Made by a program: the position numbers and the translations under genes. A model generated the notes under the pieces. The model was not told where the DNA came from. It saw nothing but the letters and a program-made list of their open reading frames with translations, and did not search any database. A stretch of DNA of 64,000 bases, from assembly GCF_902168435.1 (NCBI RefSeq), contig NZ_LR656175.1, positions 120,809 through 184,808 of the forward strand, given 5' to 3'. The stretch is from Bacillus marasmi (lineage in GTDB: Bacteria; Bacillota; Bacilli; Bacillales; Cytobacillaceae). Shown here piece by piece: positions 19,932 through 26,749 of the stretch (position 1 is the stretch's first letter; each line of letters starts with the position of its first letter).

Positions 19932-20591
19932 ATGAACGATATAAAAATAACAAAAATTTTGATCGTTGATGACCATGCCCACGCTAGAGAAGCTATTAGG
20001 GAGCAACTAAGTGAATATAAAGACTTTCTTATTATCGGTGAAGCACAGAACGGTGAAGAAGCCATCTTTTTAGCTGATGAGCTCAATCCTGACCTAATTT
20101 TGATGGATATAAATATGCCTGGTATCGATGGCCTAAAAACGACAAAGCTTATTAAAGAACAGCACCCAAATATCATAATTGTCATCTTAACCGTTTCCGA
20201 AGATAGCACACATTTGTTTGAGGCTTTAAAGCAAGGGGCACAAGGCTTTTTAATCAAAAAGGTTAACCCCGGCGATTGGTATCCATATTTGAAATCAGTC
20301 GTATCGGATAACATTCCTGTTTCTTATGAATTTGTTAATGAAGTGCTGCAAACGATGTCAAGCCATCCTAAGAAAAACACTAGCACCATACCAAATCCAT
20401 TATCACAGCGCGAAATGGAAATATTAAAACTGGTCGCAAAGGGCTATACAAACAAAGAGATTTCAAACATCAGCTTCATATCAGAAAATACCGTGAAAAA
20501 TCATTTAAAGAATATCACCAAAAAGCTAGGTATCAAAAATCGAGTCCATTTAACAAGACATGCTATCGAAAATGGCTGGATTGAACCATAG
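19932..20591 (+). CDS. NarL/FixJ-type response regulator
   Basis: A 219-residue regulator: receiver domain (1-125) with acidic DD at 13-14, phospho-acceptor Asp59 in ILMDINMPG and Lys in IKKVNPG, then a LuxR-type HTH (about 150-215, LSQREMEILKLVAKGYTNKE). It is the cognate partner of the kinase immediately upstream; GGGGGA precedes the ATG. Targets unknown; the nosDLYF operon lies next to it on the other strand. Confidence 0.92.
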   Translation: MNDIKITKILIVDDHAHAREAIREQLSEYKDFLIIGEAQNGEEAIFLADELNPDLILMDINMPGIDGLKTTKLIKEQHPNIIIVILTVSEDSTHLFEALKQGAQGFLIKKVNPGDWYPYLKSVVSDNIPVSYEFVNEVLQTMSSHPKKNTSTIPNPLSQREMEILKLVAKGYTNKEISNISFISENTVKNHLKNITKKLGIKNRVHLTRHAIENGWIEP

Positions 20592-20738
20592 AAAAGCGGA
20601 GGGGGCTTGCTCAGGAGCGACAGGCATAAGACGAATCACGCAAGAGACGATAGTCTCTGGAGGGATTTGGCTTATGACCCCGAGCTCCTAGCCACCGCAG
20701 CTAGACAAATAGAAAAGCGAAGGGGGCTTGCTCAGCCT
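20591..20738 (+). repeat. Structured repeat element, type B, plus truncated copy
   Basis: A full copy (20591-20708) of the AAAAGCGGAGG...AGCTAGACAA element whose stems are AGGAGC/GCTCCT, CATAAG/CTTATG and AGAGAC/GTCTCT. A second copy begins at 20712 and is cut off after about 27 bp. See 24391-24804 and 26631-26749 for other copies. Confidence 0.85.
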
Positions 20739-20750
20739 AAATAAAATAAT

Positions 20751-20780
20751 AAAAACAGAGACGGATTAGTCTCTGTTTTT
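20751..20780. terminator. Bidirectional intrinsic terminator
   Basis: Perfect stem AAAAACAGAGAC / GTCTCTGTTTTT between the response regulator and the convergent nosF-like gene. Confidence 0.9.
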
Positions 20781-21496
20781 TATTTGAATCCATAAATTTC
20801 CTTATTTATTTGATAAAGTCTTGAATGTAAGTGGTCACGATCTACATCGTTTACTTCAATGACATGATAAATTTGACCTTGATGCAAAAATACAATCACA
20901 TCAGCAATCTGTGCGGCTACATCAAGCTGATGAGTTGATAATAAAATCGTCTTACCTTGTGCGCGAAGCTGTAGCAAAATATCAGCAAAGGTTGACACCC
21001 AAAATGGATCGAGTCCATTGGTCGGCTCATCAAGCAAAATCAAATCACTGTCACGAATATAACTTTGCGCGAACACTAAACGCTGTCTCATCCCTTTTGA
21101 CAGATGACCTAGCTTTTCATTGCTTTTTATATCTAAACCAACTAATTTCAAAGCCTTCTCGATTTGTCCTTTAGGAGCTCGAGCAAGTTTCGCATAAAAT
21201 GTTAGCCATTCTTTTACTGTTAAACCAGTCGGAAAATGAAAATCGTCAGGCATATAACTGATTTTATTTAGATAGCTTTTACGATTTAGATAATCTAAAC
21301 CACCAACAGTAACCTCTCCGCTCGAGGGCTTAAAAATTCCACCAATCATTTTGATAATTGTACTCTTGCCGGCGCCATTTCCACCGACTAATACTCCAAT
21401 TTGACCCTCATCCAACTGTAACGAAAATGGGGCTAGAACTTGCTTTTTATTAAAACTCTTTGTTAGATTTTTAATCTCTAAAATAGGTTGGCTCAT
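20780..21496 (-). CDS. nosF: ABC transporter ATPase, NosF-like
   Basis: A 238-residue ATPase with Walker A GGNGAGKST at 38-46, signature LSKGMRQRL (about 133) and LILLDEPTNGLDP (about 153). It is the last gene of nosD-nosL-nosY-nosF and overlaps the nosY stop by ATGA. NosFY with NosD supplies the copper-sulfur centre of nitrous oxide reductase. Given the operon the nos name is likely, but nosZ itself is not in the window. Confidence 0.85.
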   Translation of the reverse strand: MSQPILEIKNLTKSFNKKQVLAPFSLQLDEGQIGVLVGGNGAGKSTIIKMIGGIFKPSSGEVTVGGLDYLNRKSYLNKISYMPDDFHFPTGLTVKEWLTFYAKLARAPKGQIEKALKLVGLDIKSNEKLGHLSKGMRQRLVFAQSYIRDSDLILLDEPTNGLDPFWVSTFADILLQLRAQGKTILLSTHQLDVAAQIADVIVFLHQGQIYHVIEVNDVDRDHLHSRLYQINKEIYGFK

Positions 21497-22311
21497 TTTC
21501 TAACTTTCCTTCCTATTAGAAAAGTAGATATTGCTAGCATTCCAAAAACATAGAGTAGAACGTATATCAGTAAATACAGAAATGACTGAGTGCCTTTTAA
21601 GAAATCGATGATTTGATAGTATTGCTGTCCAAAAATCGAACCACCCTCAAATTGTATAACAAAGAAAACCCTTAAAAGCTCTGCTGGATTTAAAACTGTT
21701 AAACCTAATAAGATTGGTTTTACCAAATTATATTTTAAAAAGCTTAGGCTACCAATCAACAACATCGGCCATATCATAATAAAAATAAACCAGAGGGCAA
21801 TTGCAATCATCATTGACTGCCAGCGTGTCGAAGAAAGAACACCAATTAGAATACCGATAGCTAAAAATGCTGCGGTGACCAAAATGGCAAAAAGAAAAAT
21901 AAGTAGAATTCCGTTTACTGAAGTGGATCCATTAAAAATGAAGCTCATAGCGGTGAATACACCGAAGCTAAACGTAATAACAATTAGATGTGTAACAAAT
22001 TGACCTAAAAATTTCCCCATAATAAAGGATGTCATCTTAAAGGGATACGTTAACAAAAGTGCAAATCGTCCTGCTTCTCTCTCTTCGGTTATCGAGAAAG
22101 CACCTAGCAACATGACAATGAGCGGCAGTGAGTAAAGCAGCACATTGAAAGCTGTTGCGGTAACATTTGTGAAGCTGTTTAATCCATCGATATTGAGCTG
22201 AATCATAAAAATAAACGCCATTATCAATAGAAACAAACCGGCAAACAAGTAAAAAGACTTTTGCCTTAAGGACGATTTCCATTCTTGGCGAAAGAAAACA
22301 TATGTATCCAT
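21493..22311 (-). CDS. nosY: ABC permease, NosY-like
   Basis: A 272-residue ABC-2 membrane subunit with six predicted helices and the SITEEREAGRFALLLTYPFK coupling segment near residue 80. The ATG at 22311 is preferred because AAAGGGGGAG precedes it; the longer frame adds 19 codons with no ribosome site. Overlaps nosF by 4 bp and lies 97 bp after nosL. Confidence 0.85.
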   Translation of the reverse strand: MDTYVFFRQEWKSSLRQKSFYLFAGLFLLIMAFIFMIQLNIDGLNSFTNVTATAFNVLLYSLPLIVMLLGAFSITEEREAGRFALLLTYPFKMTSFIMGKFLGQFVTHLIVITFSFGVFTAMSFIFNGSTSVNGILLIFLFAILVTAAFLAIGILIGVLSSTRWQSMMIAIALWFIFIMIWPMLLIGSLSFLKYNLVKPILLGLTVLNPAELLRVFFVIQFEGGSIFGQQYYQIIDFLKGTQSFLYLLIYVLLYVFGMLAISTFLIGRKVRK

Positions 22312-22342
22312 GTAAAACTCCCCCTTTCTATTGAATGCAATG

Positions 22343-22372
22343 GAATGAGGCTGAAAAATCAGCCTCATCCTT
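22343..22372 (-). other. Hairpin between nosL and nosY
   Basis: ATGAGGCTGA / TCAGCCTCAT with a short A/T loop. No U-tract follows in the direction of transcription, so it is more likely a stability or processing hairpin than a full terminator. Confidence 0.55.
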
Positions 22373-22408
22373 TATAGATTATTCAGCATGGTTCATGCCT
22401 TCATCCAT

Positions 22409-22990
22409 TTACATGCTCTCATCAGAATGCATACCATCCATGCTGTCATTATGCATTTTCATTGTCATATTGCTTTTATCTTGTGGCCATTCATGTTTAT
22501 CTAATTCAGCCTTAGTCATAATAGTTCCCATACCGTTTTTATCGATGAACTTTTGTGCACCAGCTTCATCTTTAAAAGCAATAACACCATAACCCATTGC
22601 AGTTGTAATTTTTGGATCAAATACGTATACAGCTTTATCATAATCTAACCATTCTTTATCATGGTGACTACGAACGAATGCTTCATCAATATCATCAGTA
22701 CCATTTGTTCTAATCCATTTATTTACCATACAGCCGATATCATCAAATACTAAAGTTTTTCCATCCTTTAACACAATCTCAGTTGCATCTGCATTGTCTC
22801 CAACAGCCATTTTACAGTTTTCACATTTGTCGACAGCTTCATCAATTGGTTTTGGCTCAACTGCTGCCTTTTCCTCTGTTTTTGGATCCTCTTTCTTTTC
22901 AGTGTCTTTCGCTGAATCGTCTGAATTACAGCCTGCTACAGCAAACATTAACACAAATAGTAACATTAAAATCCCCAATTTTTTTTTCAT
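22409..22990 (-). CDS. nosL: NosL-type copper chaperone lipoprotein
   Basis: A 193-residue lipoprotein (lipobox AVAGC, Cys21). The NosL core shows C56-E-N-C59-K-M61 and FDDIGCMVNKW, the Cys/Met set that carries Cu(I) to NosZ. The C-terminus is Met/His-rich (MKMHNDSMDGMHSDESM). The TAA stop is followed in frame by nine more codons (MDEGMNHAE) and a second TAA. Its ATG overlaps the nosD stop (ATGA). Confidence 0.88.
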   Translation of the reverse strand: MKKKLGILMLLFVLMFAVAGCNSDDSAKDTEKKEDPKTEEKAAVEPKPIDEAVDKCENCKMAVGDNADATEIVLKDGKTLVFDDIGCMVNKWIRTNGTDDIDEAFVRSHHDKEWLDYDKAVYVFDPKITTAMGYGVIAFKDEAGAQKFIDKNGMGTIMTKAELDKHEWPQDKSNMTMKMHNDSMDGMHSDESM

Positions 22991-24279
22991 TGCAATTTCT
23001 TCCTCCCCAAAGAAAATAAAATAATACTTGCTAGTATGAATAGTATAGAAATATACATTATACCCATGTTTAAGCCTGACGAGCTTGCTTGTTCAATGTT
23101 AGGCTCCATTGTTGGTGATAAATCCTTAATCAATGTAGCCTCATCGCTTTTAAACAGCTTTTCCATCAACATCATTCCTGGCGATTGAAATAGCAGTCCA
23201 AAAGCAGAATTCTTATCCGTTATCTCCATAAAATATGGATCAGCAACAACTTTTAAATCACTTAAGTCATCACCATTCACATCCAAACCTTGTTGGTTAT
23301 CCCAATAGTTTTTTGCAAGATTGTTCTGATTTGAACCATCTCCATAGGTAAGGATCGTCGTTGCATTGATTTTAAAATCATTATTTGTAATATCATTGTC
23401 TGTAGACTGTTTAAAAATAATCCCTAAAGCATTTCCTTGAACATCATTCTTGGTAATTAGATTGGTAAAGCAATTGTCAATCATAATCCCAATTCGATTA
23501 TCCTTAATCAGATTATTTTGAAATTTCGAGTCGTGAACGTCATATAAATATAGACCTTGCGAATTAACATTTTGTCTATTTTCCAGCAACTTATTATTCT
23601 CATATAACTCATTATAGGAAACCATTATCATGCTGCCCGTATGGTTGTTTATAAATGTGTTGTTCCTAACTACATTATCCTCGGTATACATAAAATGTAG
23701 ACCATATCGAGAACGGGTAATCGTATTACCGTGAATTTGGTTGGCGTTACTATACTCAACATAAATCCCGTCACGTATATCCTGTACCGTGTTATCGGCA
23801 ATTTCATTATTAATTGAACGGTACAAATCAATACCGTTACCAACTTCACTAGCACCTGCGTAACCCTCAACTTTTACATTTCGAACTTTGATATTGCTGG
23901 CTTCATTTAATCGAACCCCTATCAGCGCTGTCTTAACTGTGACATTTTGGAGTGTATGCTCCCGTCCCGAGATAAAAATAGCGTAATCAGAATTCTTATT
24001 TTCCACACTTAGATTTTGAACGGTGGCACCTTTATTTTTAATGATAATCGCCGGTGATTCCCCATCCGATTTAATTGTTACCTTATTTTGCCCAGTGACT
24101 GTTATTGCCTTATTGATTACGATGGGTCCCGTATATGTCCCGCTTGGCAATTCAACCGTATCACCATCCTGACTATGATTGATAAGGTCTTGCAAGTTTT
24201 CTTCTGCGGCAACACTTGTAAATCCAAAGGCTATATAAAGCAGTATGAACAATGAGATCATTCTTTGAAAAAGTTGCAT
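22987..24279 (-). CDS. nosD: NosD-type periplasmic/extracytoplasmic beta-helix protein
   Basis: A 430-residue protein: signal peptide (1-25), right-handed parallel beta-helix with many N-rich turns (GNTITRSRYGLHFMYTEDN, NNTFINNHTGSM) typical of CASH/NosD domains, and a C-terminal membrane helix (about 403-424) followed by GRKK. It acts outside the membrane with NosFY in metal-centre assembly. First gene of the operon; a structured repeat cluster lies about 110 bp upstream. Confidence 0.9.
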   Translation of the reverse strand: MQLFQRMISLFILLYIAFGFTSVAAEENLQDLINHSQDGDTVELPSGTYTGPIVINKAITVTGQNKVTIKSDGESPAIIIKNKGATVQNLSVENKNSDYAIFISGREHTLQNVTVKTALIGVRLNEASNIKVRNVKVEGYAGASEVGNGIDLYRSINNEIADNTVQDIRDGIYVEYSNANQIHGNTITRSRYGLHFMYTEDNVVRNNTFINNHTGSMIMVSYNELYENNKLLENRQNVNSQGLYLYDVHDSKFQNNLIKDNRIGIMIDNCFTNLITKNDVQGNALGIIFKQSTDNDITNNDFKINATTILTYGDGSNQNNLAKNYWDNQQGLDVNGDDLSDLKVVADPYFMEITDKNSAFGLLFQSPGMMLMEKLFKSDEATLIKDLSPTMEPNIEQASSSGLNMGIMYISILFILASIILFSLGRKKLQ

Positions 24280-24390
24280 TTCTCACACCTCTCACCATAA
24301 ATATAGCATGTGGATTTTTGGTGACATATGACTCTTTATGGCTATAATTGTGACAAACAAATGACGAAAACATGAAGAAATGTGAAGTAA

Positions 24391-24804
24391 GAAAAGCGGA
24401 GGGGGCTTGCTCAGCCCCGACAAGCTTAAGACGAGCTGGCCGAAAGGTCGAACTTTACCTTTTGGACGGATTGGCTTAAGACCTCGAGGGGCTAGCCGCC
24501 GCAGCTGGACAAGAAAAGCGGAGGCGGCTCGTTCAGCCCCGACAAGCTTAAGACGAGCCGGCCGAAAGGTCGTTCTTTGACCTTTTGGACGGATTGGCTT
24601 AAGACCTCGAGGGGCTAGCCGCCGCAGCTAGACAAGAAAAGCGGAGGGGGCTTGCTCAGGAGCGAAAGGCATAAGACGGATCTCGGAAGAGACGACAGTC
24701 TCTGGAGGGATTTGGCTTATGACCCCGAGCTCCTAGCCACCGCAGCTAGACAAGAAAAGCGGAGGGGGCTTGCTCAGCCCCGACAAGCTTAAGACGAGCC
24801 GGCC
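24391..24804 (+). repeat. Structured repeat elements, three full copies and one truncated
   Basis: Head-to-tail copies: type A at 24391-24512 and 24513-24635, type B at 24636-24753, and a type A copy cut after about 50 bp (24754-24804). Each begins GAAAAGCGGAGG and ends GCAGCTRGACAA. Sequence differences between A and B preserve pairing in every main stem. Confidence 0.9.
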
Positions 24805-24848
24805 TGAGAATAACATAAAAGGCTCTTAACTAAAAGAAAACTATCATT

Positions 24849-25031
24849 AGCGGACACTCAATCCCTTATTTATGCTAATAACAGTATTTTTGAGGAGGAA
24901 GCGGACACTGAATCCTCTATTTGTAAAAAAGACTGTTTAACTTTCAAAATTTTGACCAAATAAGGTATCTGATGTCCGCAAAACTGATAAATGGAGCCTC
25001 TATATTGAAAATAAGGTATTCAGTGTCCGTT
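24849..25031. repeat. GCGGACA repeat cluster, two forward and two inverted copies
   Basis: Forward GCGGACACTCAATCCCTTAT at 24850 and GCGGACACTGAATCCTCTAT at 24901; inverted AATAAGGTATCTGATGTCCG around 24959-24978 and AATAAGGTATTCAGTGTCCG around 25010-25029. Same layout as 1617-1804. No gene lies between 24280 and 25141. Confidence 0.75.
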
Positions 25032-25090
25032 GAAAATTCAAACGCTTTTTGTATATCAAAAACAACTTTCTTTGCGAAAACAGCAAAATA

Positions 25091-25116
25091 AAAAGACCTG
25101 AATTCAGCTTCAGATC
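25091..25116 (-). terminator. Probable terminator of the zinc-ribbon gene
   Basis: Read on the minus strand, GATCTGAA / TTCAGGTC with one G-T pair is followed by TTTTTATTTT. Confidence 0.6.
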
Positions 25117-25141
25117 CTTTACCTATGTACTTACATTATTG

Positions 25142-25420
25142 CTACTCACGTTTTAATTTAACCATTAATTGCTTTAAGCCAGGTGGCAGTGACAATTGAA
25201 GTGCCGAGAACCAGGAGGCATTCATATCAACGCCAATTGAAGCGCTTACAGTTCTTTCATTTAAATCTGTGCCGCAGCTTTTACACTCAATTTGGTACTT
25301 ATTGTAGTTCTTTTCCCCACAACTATAGCAATATGCTTTTGTCCGGAATGGTTTTACACCACATTTGGGACAAATCTCTGTAGTGTTAGCTATCACGACT
25401 CCACAATTGGAACAATACAA
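25142..25420 (-). CDS. Zinc-ribbon protein
   Basis: About 92 residues. Two zinc-ribbon modules occupy most of it: C3-x2-C6 with C17-x2-C20, then CYSCG with CKSCG. The C-terminal part (SWFSALQLSLPPGLKQLMVKL) is amphipathic. TTG at 25420 is chosen as start because GGGGG lies 8 nt before it and the product then begins MYCSNCG, the usual N-terminus; the longer frame has no good site. Function unknown. Confidence 0.65.
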   Translation of the reverse strand: MYCSNCGVVIANTTEICPKCGVKPFRTKAYCYSCGEKNYNKYQIECKSCGTDLNERTVSASIGVDMNASWFSALQLSLPPGLKQLMVKLKRE

Positions 25421-25704
25421 TTTTTCTTCCCCCCATAAACAAAGATATGAACGAACCTTGTGCAAGTCTCTAAGTTTTAGCTATCCGATTGTTATAAAAT
25501 ATAAAATGTTTACACAATTATTATTATACTAAAATAAATACCATGATTTACACATCCCTCCAAAAAGTTAGAAAAGTATTCATAATTAGACATTTACAGA
25601 ACAAAATAAAGACAGTCTCGACTAAGACTGCCTTGAATATAATTTATATTGTTTAGTTCATGCAAAAAGCGGCTAAGTTCATAAGCCCTTGTATGTTTCT
25701 TACC

Positions 25705-26607
25705 TTATTGATATTGCTCTAATCTATGGAAGAAATCTTTAATAAAACCATAAAAGGCCTTCTCTGACGGTGAAAGTTCCCGTTTCTTTGGAACAATGAC
25801 TCCAACCGTTCTTCTGACTACTGGAAACTCAATTGGGATTTTAACCGTAAAACGAGGTGGCTTTACATCAAATGTACTTTCCGGAAGCAATGTAACTCCC
25901 ATCCCTGCTGCCACGAGACCTTTAATTGCATCTAGATCTTCTCCCTCTGAAGATGTTTTTGGGGTAAAACCAGCTTGCTTACAAGCGTCTATGGCAATTC
26001 TATGAAGGATCATTCCTTCTGGAAACAAAACAAACTCTTCATCCCTTAAATCATTCAGTCTAATGCTTTTTTGATTTGCTAATGGATGGCTAGCAGGTAA
26101 TAACGCCGTAATTCTTTCGGAAAATAAAATATGAACTTCAATATCAGCATCCTCGGGCGGAACTGGGCCTAAAAAGGCTATGTTTATTTCCCGATTTTTC
26201 ACTGCATCAATTAAAAATTTATATGAACCTTGTCTAAGTTGAAATGAAACATTTTGATGTTTTTCTTTAAATGCAGAAATAACAGTTGGCATAAAGTGAC
26301 TTGCCAAGCTAGTTGGAAATCCAATTTTAATCGTTCCTTTTTCTGGGTTTAAATATTCATCGATTTGCATTTTGGCATAATCGATTGCTTTTAATGCTGT
26401 TTCTGCATGCTCTAAAAAGAGCTTTCCAACCGGTGTTAATTTAACATTCCGTCCATCTTTTTCAAATAGTTGAACGCCTAGCTCATCCTCTAAGTTGCCA
26501 ATCTGTCTGCTTAGCGCTGATTGGGCGACATGGATTTGCTGTGCTGCTTCAGAAACATGTTCTCGTTTCGCCACTTCTATAAAGTAACGTAATTGTCGAA
26601 GCTCCAT
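25705..26607 (-). CDS. gltC: LysR-type regulator GltC
   Basis: A 300-residue LysR regulator that reads closely like B. subtilis GltC over its full length (MELRQLRYFIEVAKREHVSE, GEDLDAIKGLVAAGMGVTLL, TVKIPIEFPVVRRTVGVI). HTH at about 18-37, effector domain 90-295. In B. subtilis GltC activates gltAB and responds to 2-oxoglutarate, glutamate and RocG. Here it is divergent from a glutamate dehydrogenase gene rather than gltAB. AAAGGGG precedes the ATG. Confidence 0.88.
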   Translation of the reverse strand: MELRQLRYFIEVAKREHVSEAAQQIHVAQSALSRQIGNLEDELGVQLFEKDGRNVKLTPVGKLFLEHAETALKAIDYAKMQIDEYLNPEKGTIKIGFPTSLASHFMPTVISAFKEKHQNVSFQLRQGSYKFLIDAVKNREINIAFLGPVPPEDADIEVHILFSERITALLPASHPLANQKSIRLNDLRDEEFVLFPEGMILHRIAIDACKQAGFTPKTSSEGEDLDAIKGLVAAGMGVTLLPESTFDVKPPRFTVKIPIEFPVVRRTVGVIVPKKRELSPSEKAFYGFIKDFFHRLEQYQ

Positions 26608-26630
26608 TGCTTTACCCCTTTTTCAATATG

Positions 26631-26749
26631 TCTAGCTTCAGCGGCAGCCCCTCGAGGTCTTAAGCCAATCCGTCTTGAAGGTTAAATAACAACCTTCCAG
26701 TCGGCTCGGCTTAAGCTTGTCGGGGCTGAACGAGCCGCTTTTGCTTTTC
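26631..26749 (-). repeat. Structured repeat element, inverted copy
   Basis: A full-length copy on the minus strand with stems AGCCCC/GGGGCT, CTTAAG/CTTAAG and GAAGGTT/AACCTTC. The last stem differs in sequence from every other copy yet pairs perfectly. It sits in the gltC leader, 24 bp upstream of the start codon. Confidence 0.85.

Follow-up and report, generated by a model that had tools for sequence, protein, structure and literature searches.

A repeated hairpin at three sites of the window

The 64,000-nucleotide stretch of the Bacillus marasmi genome analysed here (contig NZ_LR656175.1, positions 120,809 to 184,808 of the forward strand; hereafter the window, with coordinates counted from its first letter) carries five full and two truncated copies of an interspersed element, each unit of which is one long imperfect hairpin of about 117-123 nt. 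The copies lie at three sites and on both strands, and one site is a head-to-tail array. As set out below, the element is probably a mobile repeat of Bacillus relatives, and its position at gene ends is what is new here. An earlier note, made from the letters alone, had reported this number of full and truncated copies in both orientations and had quoted their stem sequences; all of the quoted stems are present as stated, and the five full copies match a covariance model, R1, with E values of 2e-33 to 6e-24 (R1 was built partly from window copies). That note did not mention that 24391-24805 is arranged as a head-to-tail array, nor did it list two further stems on the outside of the hairpin (around GCGG..CCGC and GGCGGCT..AGCCGCC).

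At site 1, a full copy of the 117-nt type with stem 1 AGGAGC/GCTCCT and apical stem AGAGAC/GTCTCT (20591-20707, plus strand) begins with a G that also completes the TAG stop codon of a response-regulator-like frame (19932-20591). It is followed in tandem by the 5' 26 nt of a second copy (20712-20737, plus strand), and 3' of both lies a terminator-like hairpin, AAAAACAGAGAC..GTCTCTGTTTTT (20751-20780); a consensus scan called it on the minus strand, with a scan total of 6 sites versus 5.0 in shuffles, which is no excess. In the relatives G039 and G052 the element is absent from this place, and the stop codon is followed by a few bases and then by a similar terminator-like hairpin, so that insertion at site 1 parted the stop codon from the terminator. 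Another element copy occupies the site in G019, and a different repeat in G063. Site 2 is the array, with all four members on the plus strand: two full copies of the AGCCCC/GGGGCT type (24391-24511 and 24513-24634), the second of which has the top score (142.2 bits) among the 139 own-genome R1 matches listed; a full copy of the 117-nt AGGAGC/GCTCCT type (24636-24752) with 96% identity to the copy at 20591; and a truncated copy consisting of the 5' 52 nt (24754-24805). Site 3 holds a single full copy on the minus strand (26629-26749), which lies 21 nt upstream of a LysR-like frame (25705-26607, minus strand) and is represented in G019 by a short hairpin remnant only. None of the 4227 models of Rfam 15 reached its gathering score in the window, and the sole match between 20400 and 27000 at E up to 1 was mir-628 (E 0.9), far under its gathering score.

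The fold and its compensatory changes

Folded alone, each full window copy reaches -48 to -61 kcal/mol, with z-scores of -3.0 to -6.5 relative to dinucleotide shuffles. The ends of the element are almost fixed (GAAAAGC ... GCTAGACA), as are, within the own lineage, the letters of the internal loop (CGACA.GC opposite GACC.CGAG), while the stems are free to vary, both arms together. The ends pair solely as parts of the one interrupted hairpin, as was checked against the terminal inverted repeats of 15-30 bp that are typical of miniature inverted-repeat transposable elements (MITEs).

The five window copies by themselves contain few independent compensatory changes, and the main evidence comes from wider alignments. 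Alignment A1 comprises 27 diverse copies (one of 28 representatives was dropped), was made with MAFFT without being fitted to a model, and served to build R1. RNAalifold predicts 33 pairs on A1, of which 26 have at least one sequence that is altered on both sides and yet still paired. The other two alignments were drawn from R1 matches after identical rows had been dropped, A4 from 116 matches in other genomes (100 distinct) and A3 from 144 in the own genome (138 distinct). In A4, 96.3% of cells are paired, two-sided changes occur in 28/33 pairs, and the covariation score is 0.436, compared with 0.136 in shuffles and no more than 0.124 in slid structures; the corresponding values for A3 are 96.0%, 29/33, 0.422, 0.161 and at most 0.108. 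None of 500 shuffles matched the real alignment in any of five measures, in A3 or in A4; both alignments are fitted to the model and thus biased towards it, and since the copies are related, the shuffle counts are not probabilities. The earlier note had claimed that pairing is kept despite altered stem sequence and had named a wider alignment without covariation beyond phylogeny as the result that would overturn this; covariation was found in all three alignments, and the claim is supported.

Conservation is unevenly distributed along the hairpin. Mean column identity is alike for paired and unpaired positions (0.811 versus 0.849 and 0.802 versus 0.810 in the two wide alignments), and taken as a whole the loops are therefore no better conserved than the stems. 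The ends and most of the CGACA/GACC.CGAG letters have identities of 0.8-0.9 or above, and the centres of stem 1 of 0.3-0.5 in A4 and 0.5-0.7 in A3. One stem-1 pair (25-113) is unpaired in 23 of 98 cells of A4, though it is found as C-G, A-U, G-C and G-U. An extra covarying pair lies in the internal loop (A/G opposite T/C): among 85 own-genome copies of the motif, 46 have G..C, 35 A..T and 4 neither, and in A4 (n=77) the counts are 74 A..T, 2 A..C and 1 G..C. The loop letters are lineage-specific, and the interior differs in G226 and G223, where the ends and the architecture persist. A kink-turn formed by the internal loop was weighed on paper and set aside.

These patterns bear on an explanation by mutation instead of selection, in which one arm is copied onto the other through template switching at a quasi-palindrome. 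Template switching is known for imperfect palindromes and would match both arms in one step, as the paired changes require. However, such a process should erase the mismatched internal loops, which are mostly constant here while the central pairs of stem 1 vary freely, and it leaves unexplained the excess of G.U over A.C, so that it is very improbable as the source of the paired changes. This excess amounts to 177 versus 19 in A4 and 214 versus 26 in A3; it is due largely to conserved G.U pairs, and falls to 34 versus at most 19 and 97 versus at most 26 when mostly-G.U pairs are left out (two in A4, one in A3). Since G.U outnumbers A.C, the excess favours, short of proof, the plus strand as the folded strand and RNA as its form. 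The selection on folded RNA or single-stranded DNA that the earlier note proposed is supported by the compensatory changes and the tolerance of G.U, and the comparison of sequences suggests that the selected feature is either an RNA fold or a sense-strand DNA fold.

Copy number and spread

With one copy as query, blastn hits the own genome at 72 places, and R1 gives at least 139 matches (150 of 928 candidates were scored) in 95 clusters, of which 67 are single copies, 15 contain two, 10 three and 3 four. The gaps within clusters measure 0-5 nt in 43 of 44 cases, 20 of them being 4 nt, and the remaining one is 28 nt. R1 matches were found in 100/101 genomes and 25/25 genera of a family sample and in 118/150 genomes and 66/84 genera of an order sample, but in only 3/199 genomes of a phylum sample, namely the own genome, another genome of its order and one from its class (a single match, E 3.5e-5). 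Per-genome copy counts in these samples are lower bounds; weak matches can be lost. An exact 45-nt pattern occurs in 28 stretches, 17 of which are assigned to Rossellomorea, 2 to Cytobacillus gottheilii, 1 to Sutcliffiella halmapala, 2 to Bacillaceae and 6 to 'Bacillus'. An even 800-kb sample of G085 and G200 added 12 matches to the window's five, which is too few for position statistics.

With one own-genome copy as query, plasmids and phages gave no match at E 1e-5. At E up to 10 and with queries from other genomes, two plausible plasmid matches appeared, in Cytobacillus spongiae and Anoxybacillus amylolyticus; the others were short and chance-like. One exact-pattern match was found in IMG/VR, on a viral contig. 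Short relatives of 40-69 nt match the ends of R1 without most of its middle (L219:883-946, L221:12164-12203 and L215:3763-3824; in the own genome C41:45105, C25:178021 and C16:103668); the remnant at window site 3 in G019 is of this kind.

Position at gene ends

For the position counts, reading frames were taken from a simple script and not from annotation. By the frame upstream, 50 of the 95 own-genome clusters are in the same strand as that frame, 43 in the opposite strand and 2 undecided. A text rule classified 23 clusters as nested, 12 inside another element copy and 11 inside another repeat family, and these were dropped from the position count; the 72 clusters that were kept still include at least two, L143 and L174, that are nested. 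A same-strand frame of at least 40 open codons ends between -2 and +6 nt from the 5' end of the element in 34 of these 72 clusters, whereas controls shifted upstream by 20, 30, 40 and 50 nt give 5, 1, 2 and 2 of 72, and the antisense mirror test at the 3' end gives 2/72. Such frames of at least 40 codons are found in 2 of the 12 dropped clusters nested in the element itself and in none of the 11 nested in the other repeat. At loci from other genomes, 49 of 58 clusters were counted (those near locus ends and repeated junctions were dropped); a sense frame lies upstream in 19 of them and ends at -1 to +4 nt in 15 of the 19. In G223, 9 of 20 fetched copies follow a stop codon in this manner. Furthermore, the end of a tRNA lies exactly 3 nt before a copy twice in the own genome and once in G223, and these are all three tRNA-adjacent cases in 108 scanned loci.

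Two functions that such a position might imply were considered and rejected. The hairpin is not an intrinsic terminator, as no T run follows it and terminator-like hairpins lie farther on, and a promoter formed by the 3' end (TAGACA) and a tail TATACT was seen by eye in some G223 copies but is not consistent. A broader proposal is that the element is mainly a host-useful RNA module of the 3' untranslated region (3'-UTR), kept by selection for protection of mRNA 3' ends, for processing by RNase III or other enzymes, or for an effect on the ribosome at the stop codon. The sense orientation next to stop codons and the three tRNA ends agree with this, as do the sense-strand G.U excess and the persistence of the fold across the order. 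The cited passages on repeats of the Bacillus cereus group likewise report co-transcription in UTRs and a correlation with longer mRNA half-life for the repeat bcr3, but none for bcr1 (PMC3446304). However, the copies nested in another repeat or in the element itself, or located off gene ends, look like parasitic spread, and the location of the element differs between species of one genus. Host benefit as the main reason for its presence is therefore possible but unlikely.

Insertion, arrays and mobility

The nested copies can be compared with uninterrupted ones. One kind of target reads GGGATTG|GCTTGTGACC when uninterrupted and GGGATTG-nnn-[element]-n-GCTTGTGACC when occupied; the other, GCGCCGAGGAG|GCTCCC, is turned into GCGCCGAGGAG-nnC-[element]-G-GCTCCC, or nearly so, in 8 of 11 cases. 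In both kinds there is no target duplication, or one of at most one base, and three variable extra bases are found on the 5' side and one on the 3' side; the commonest array spacer of 4 nt (20/44 gaps) fits one plus three such bases. Many nested copies probably descend from few events. Unique insertion sites, judged by eye, have no consistent target duplication. One element inside another forms a composite that seems to have spread as a single piece to many locations (L129, L130, L138, L146, L151, L152, L156, L157 and L178).

The mobility that the earlier note had proposed is supported by the nested insertions and by identical copies at scattered sites. All 122 letters are common to 6 of 8 copies in G065 and to 3 of 3 in G024 (loci that were chosen for equal scores), and 9 of the 20 copies fetched from G223 are at least 97% identical to a partner elsewhere. 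As these identical copies are scattered, the sequence comparison suggests recent movement. Array neighbours in the own genome share the stem-1 arm in 17 of 46 cases (8.4 expected), and in 16 of 46 their identity exceeds 95%. L052 had suggested that types alternate along arrays, but with 17/46 neighbours sharing an arm this is not general; an origin of arrays by tandem duplication only was rejected in view of the 30 of 46 neighbours whose identity does not exceed 95%.

Some copies have a conserved 3' tail. The tail common to the G065 copies mostly ends in TTTTATACTTTCTTA, an ending also present in a viral contig, and several of these copies lie before a terminator-like hairpin. The motif TTTTATAC occurs in the tail of the G065 copies and in one viral-contig copy, and TTTATAC in G024; it is not general in own-genome copies. 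A DnaA-box-like TTATCCACA lies in the conserved 3' tail of a subset of copies (L167:2115-2170, L156, L178, L312, L315, L318); within one mismatch it is present in 8 of 9 tails versus 16 of 2000 shuffled tails, in a set chosen after the motif had been noticed and after 4 of 13 tails had been dropped that, by eye, were not element tails.

Two further repeat families lie near the element. Positions 24838-25029 of the window are taken up by a second interspersed repeat, about 190 bp long and bearing an inverted pair close to its ends, which is also found elsewhere in the own genome and in G019 of the same genus at about 80% identity (e.g. G000:C28:452-643). A third family (GGAGTGGAAGG.. / GCGCCGAGGAGGCTC.. 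/ GGAAATCAACATT; L137 around 229, L101:2810-3046 and L096:5083-5429) takes up window site 1 in G063 and site 2 in G039 and also serves as a landing place for the element.

Search for a mover

Two families were tested as candidate movers: the Y1 transposases with the domain PF01797, which include the transposases associated with repetitive extragenic palindromes (REPs; RAYT or TnpA_REP), and reverse transcriptases (RVT_1). According to the first candidate, the element would be a REP-like hairpin that a RAYT or IS200-type Y1 transposase moves in the form of single-stranded DNA. PF01797 is present in 125/150 genomes of the order sample, and the own genome has two RAYT-like Y1 genes of 192 and 200 aa (L243:1303-1881, minus strand, and L244:1462-2064, plus strand), relatives of which occur in 95/150 order genomes. 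The element is somewhat commoner in genomes with RAYT (81/95 versus 37/55; Fisher p 0.013, not corrected for descent). A longer class of RAYT-related frames, of 250-300 aa, is common in the order sample.

However, the two own-genome genes are flanked by differing palindromes of their own (GGGGGACWGTCCCCC; GGTGCCTGTCACC) and not by the element, and gene and palindromes probably form REP/RAYT pairs; one element copy lies 697 bp upstream of one of the genes, with another reading frame in between. Fourteen RAYT-bearing genomes have no element match. Conversely, seven genomes with at least 20 copies (G003, G167, G172, G181, G207, G223 and G226) have no PF01797 match; five of them yielded 102 (G167), 65 (G172), 52 (G207), 42 (G226) and 37 (G223) element matches when searched again, and it is in PF01797-less G223 that 9 of 20 copies have a near-identical partner at another site. 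Draft gaps or recent gene loss could account for some of this. The REP-type or TnpA-like transposase that the earlier note had advised looking for is thus present in the genome, but as the mover it is not supported, given the element-rich genomes without PF01797 and the other palindromes at the RAYT genes, and movement by such an enzyme is improbable. Reverse transcriptase was rejected as well, since RVT_1 (80/150 genomes) is not associated with the element (60/80 with versus 58/70 without, p 0.32).

A proposed mobile hairpin of 3' untranslated regions

Taken together, the observations are the fold with its covariation, the number of copies and their spread, a bias in position both here and in several further genomes, nested insertions and identical scattered copies. 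They are best explained by a non-autonomous 3'-UTR mobile hairpin element of Bacillus relatives, moved in trans by other machinery (probability about 0.6). On insertion the element would bring about three extra bases on its 5' side and one on its 3' side and cause no target duplication longer than one base. It would keep a fixed orientation and often land immediately after the stop codon of a gene on the same strand, and ahead of the terminator where one is visible. Because it sits behind the stop codon and ahead of the terminator, it is expected in the tail of the upstream mRNA, where its sense strand would be transcribed as a 3'-UTR hairpin. Arrays would arise via duplication as well as by new copies landing beside old ones. 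The folded strand may be the substrate of movement, and a trans-acting enzyme presumably carries it out.

Several results weigh against this explanation. No mover was found among the RAYT/Y1 and RVT_1 families tested. A clean empty site in a close strain was not found either; the window sites in relatives are diverged or carry remnants, or, as at site 1 in G019, hold another copy. A same-strand frame ending at the element is lacking in 38 of the 72 non-nested own-genome clusters, a sense frame upstream in 30 of the 49 clusters from other genomes, and just 3 of 14 loci in G226 and 1 of 6 in G172 (arrays and nested copies kept in) lie behind a stop codon; the position is accordingly a bias and not a rule, and it varies between lineages. 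Moreover, TAA, TAG and ATA are frequent among the letters directly preceding the element, and a stop triplet irrespective of frame lies in the 9-nt range in 61 of the 72 non-nested clusters. A preference for TAA- or TAG-like 5' letters together with selection against insertion within genes may explain part of the bias, although no such bias is seen on the antisense side.

It is tempting to speculate further that the copies belong to a superfamily of hairpin parasites extending over the whole order, that some of its lineages have become specialists for exact gene ends (a stop codon or the 3' end of a tRNA, in sense orientation), and that they are moved by non-Y1 machinery, possibly acting on folded sense-strand RNA, or by a widespread host enzyme. 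This extension is tentative and rather unlikely as a whole, and was lowered slightly because G226 and G172 show little position bias.

The structured repeat found in 118 of 150 sampled genomes of the order, some of which have a hundred or more copies, is without a match in Rfam 15 and sits at the ends of many genes of the own genome. Its hundreds of natural variants could be used to work out the fold, and it allows one to ask why hairpin repeats accumulate behind stop codons and provides a starting point for the search for its mover; it also affects the assembly and annotation of carrier genomes.

Comparison with known systems

REPs are found close behind stop codons in Escherichia coli. The element resembles the RAYT-associated REPs, bacterial interspersed mosaic elements (BIMEs) and REPINs in being a hairpin repeat that occurs singly or in tandem and is mostly extragenic. 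According to the cited passages, a REP measures 20-50 nt and follows a tetranucleotide, of which GTAG is the commonest, and BIMEs combine REPs in inverted orientation (PMC8266576). In contrast, the element measures 117-123 nt, starts with GAAAAGC after three variable bases without a requirement for GTAG, forms direct arrays and spreads in genomes without PF01797. MITEs make target duplications when they insert. With MITEs such as RUP, NEMIS and ERIC the element shares the nature of a short non-autonomous mobile repeat adjoining genes, for which terminal inverted repeats of 15-30 bp are described in the cited passages (PMC3733652), but neither a target duplication of two bases or more nor, as its ends pair within the one hairpin, clear terminal inverted repeats of that form were seen in it. 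Rfam Bacillaceae-1 (RF01690), described in the cited passages as a structured RNA of Bacillaceae (PMC2864571), is alike in these two respects only, as the window has no gathering-score match to any Rfam model. Open-licence full texts, including a search with six oligonucleotides of the element, contained none that was recognised as describing it, which does not show that it is unpublished.

By description, a likeness also exists to bcr1 of the 'group A' repeats bcr1-bcr3, and the element might belong to the same family and thus already be in print. The cited passages describe bcr1 as a high-copy repeat of 147 or 167 bp with a predicted conserved structure (PMC2267715), MITE-like and often located in UTRs (PMC3446304), with a TTTAT motif tied to movement (PMC6542083); size range, copy number, intergenic position, conserved structure, mobility and frequent UTR location are all shared, and the hairpin plus 3' tail of other lineages measures about 160 nt, with the tail ending near TTTTATAC. 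However, the likeness is confined to size, type of fold and one short AT-rich motif, compared by description, and bcr1 is described in the cited passages as restricted to the B. cereus group (PMC6542083), whereas the element occurs in 118/150 genomes of the order. Membership of one family is therefore doubtful; if it were true, the B. cereus group repeat would be a local branch of an old family. Although it works like an interspersed hairpin of the REP or bcr1 type, the element lacks, in the tests made here, features that define REP/RAYT systems and MITEs.

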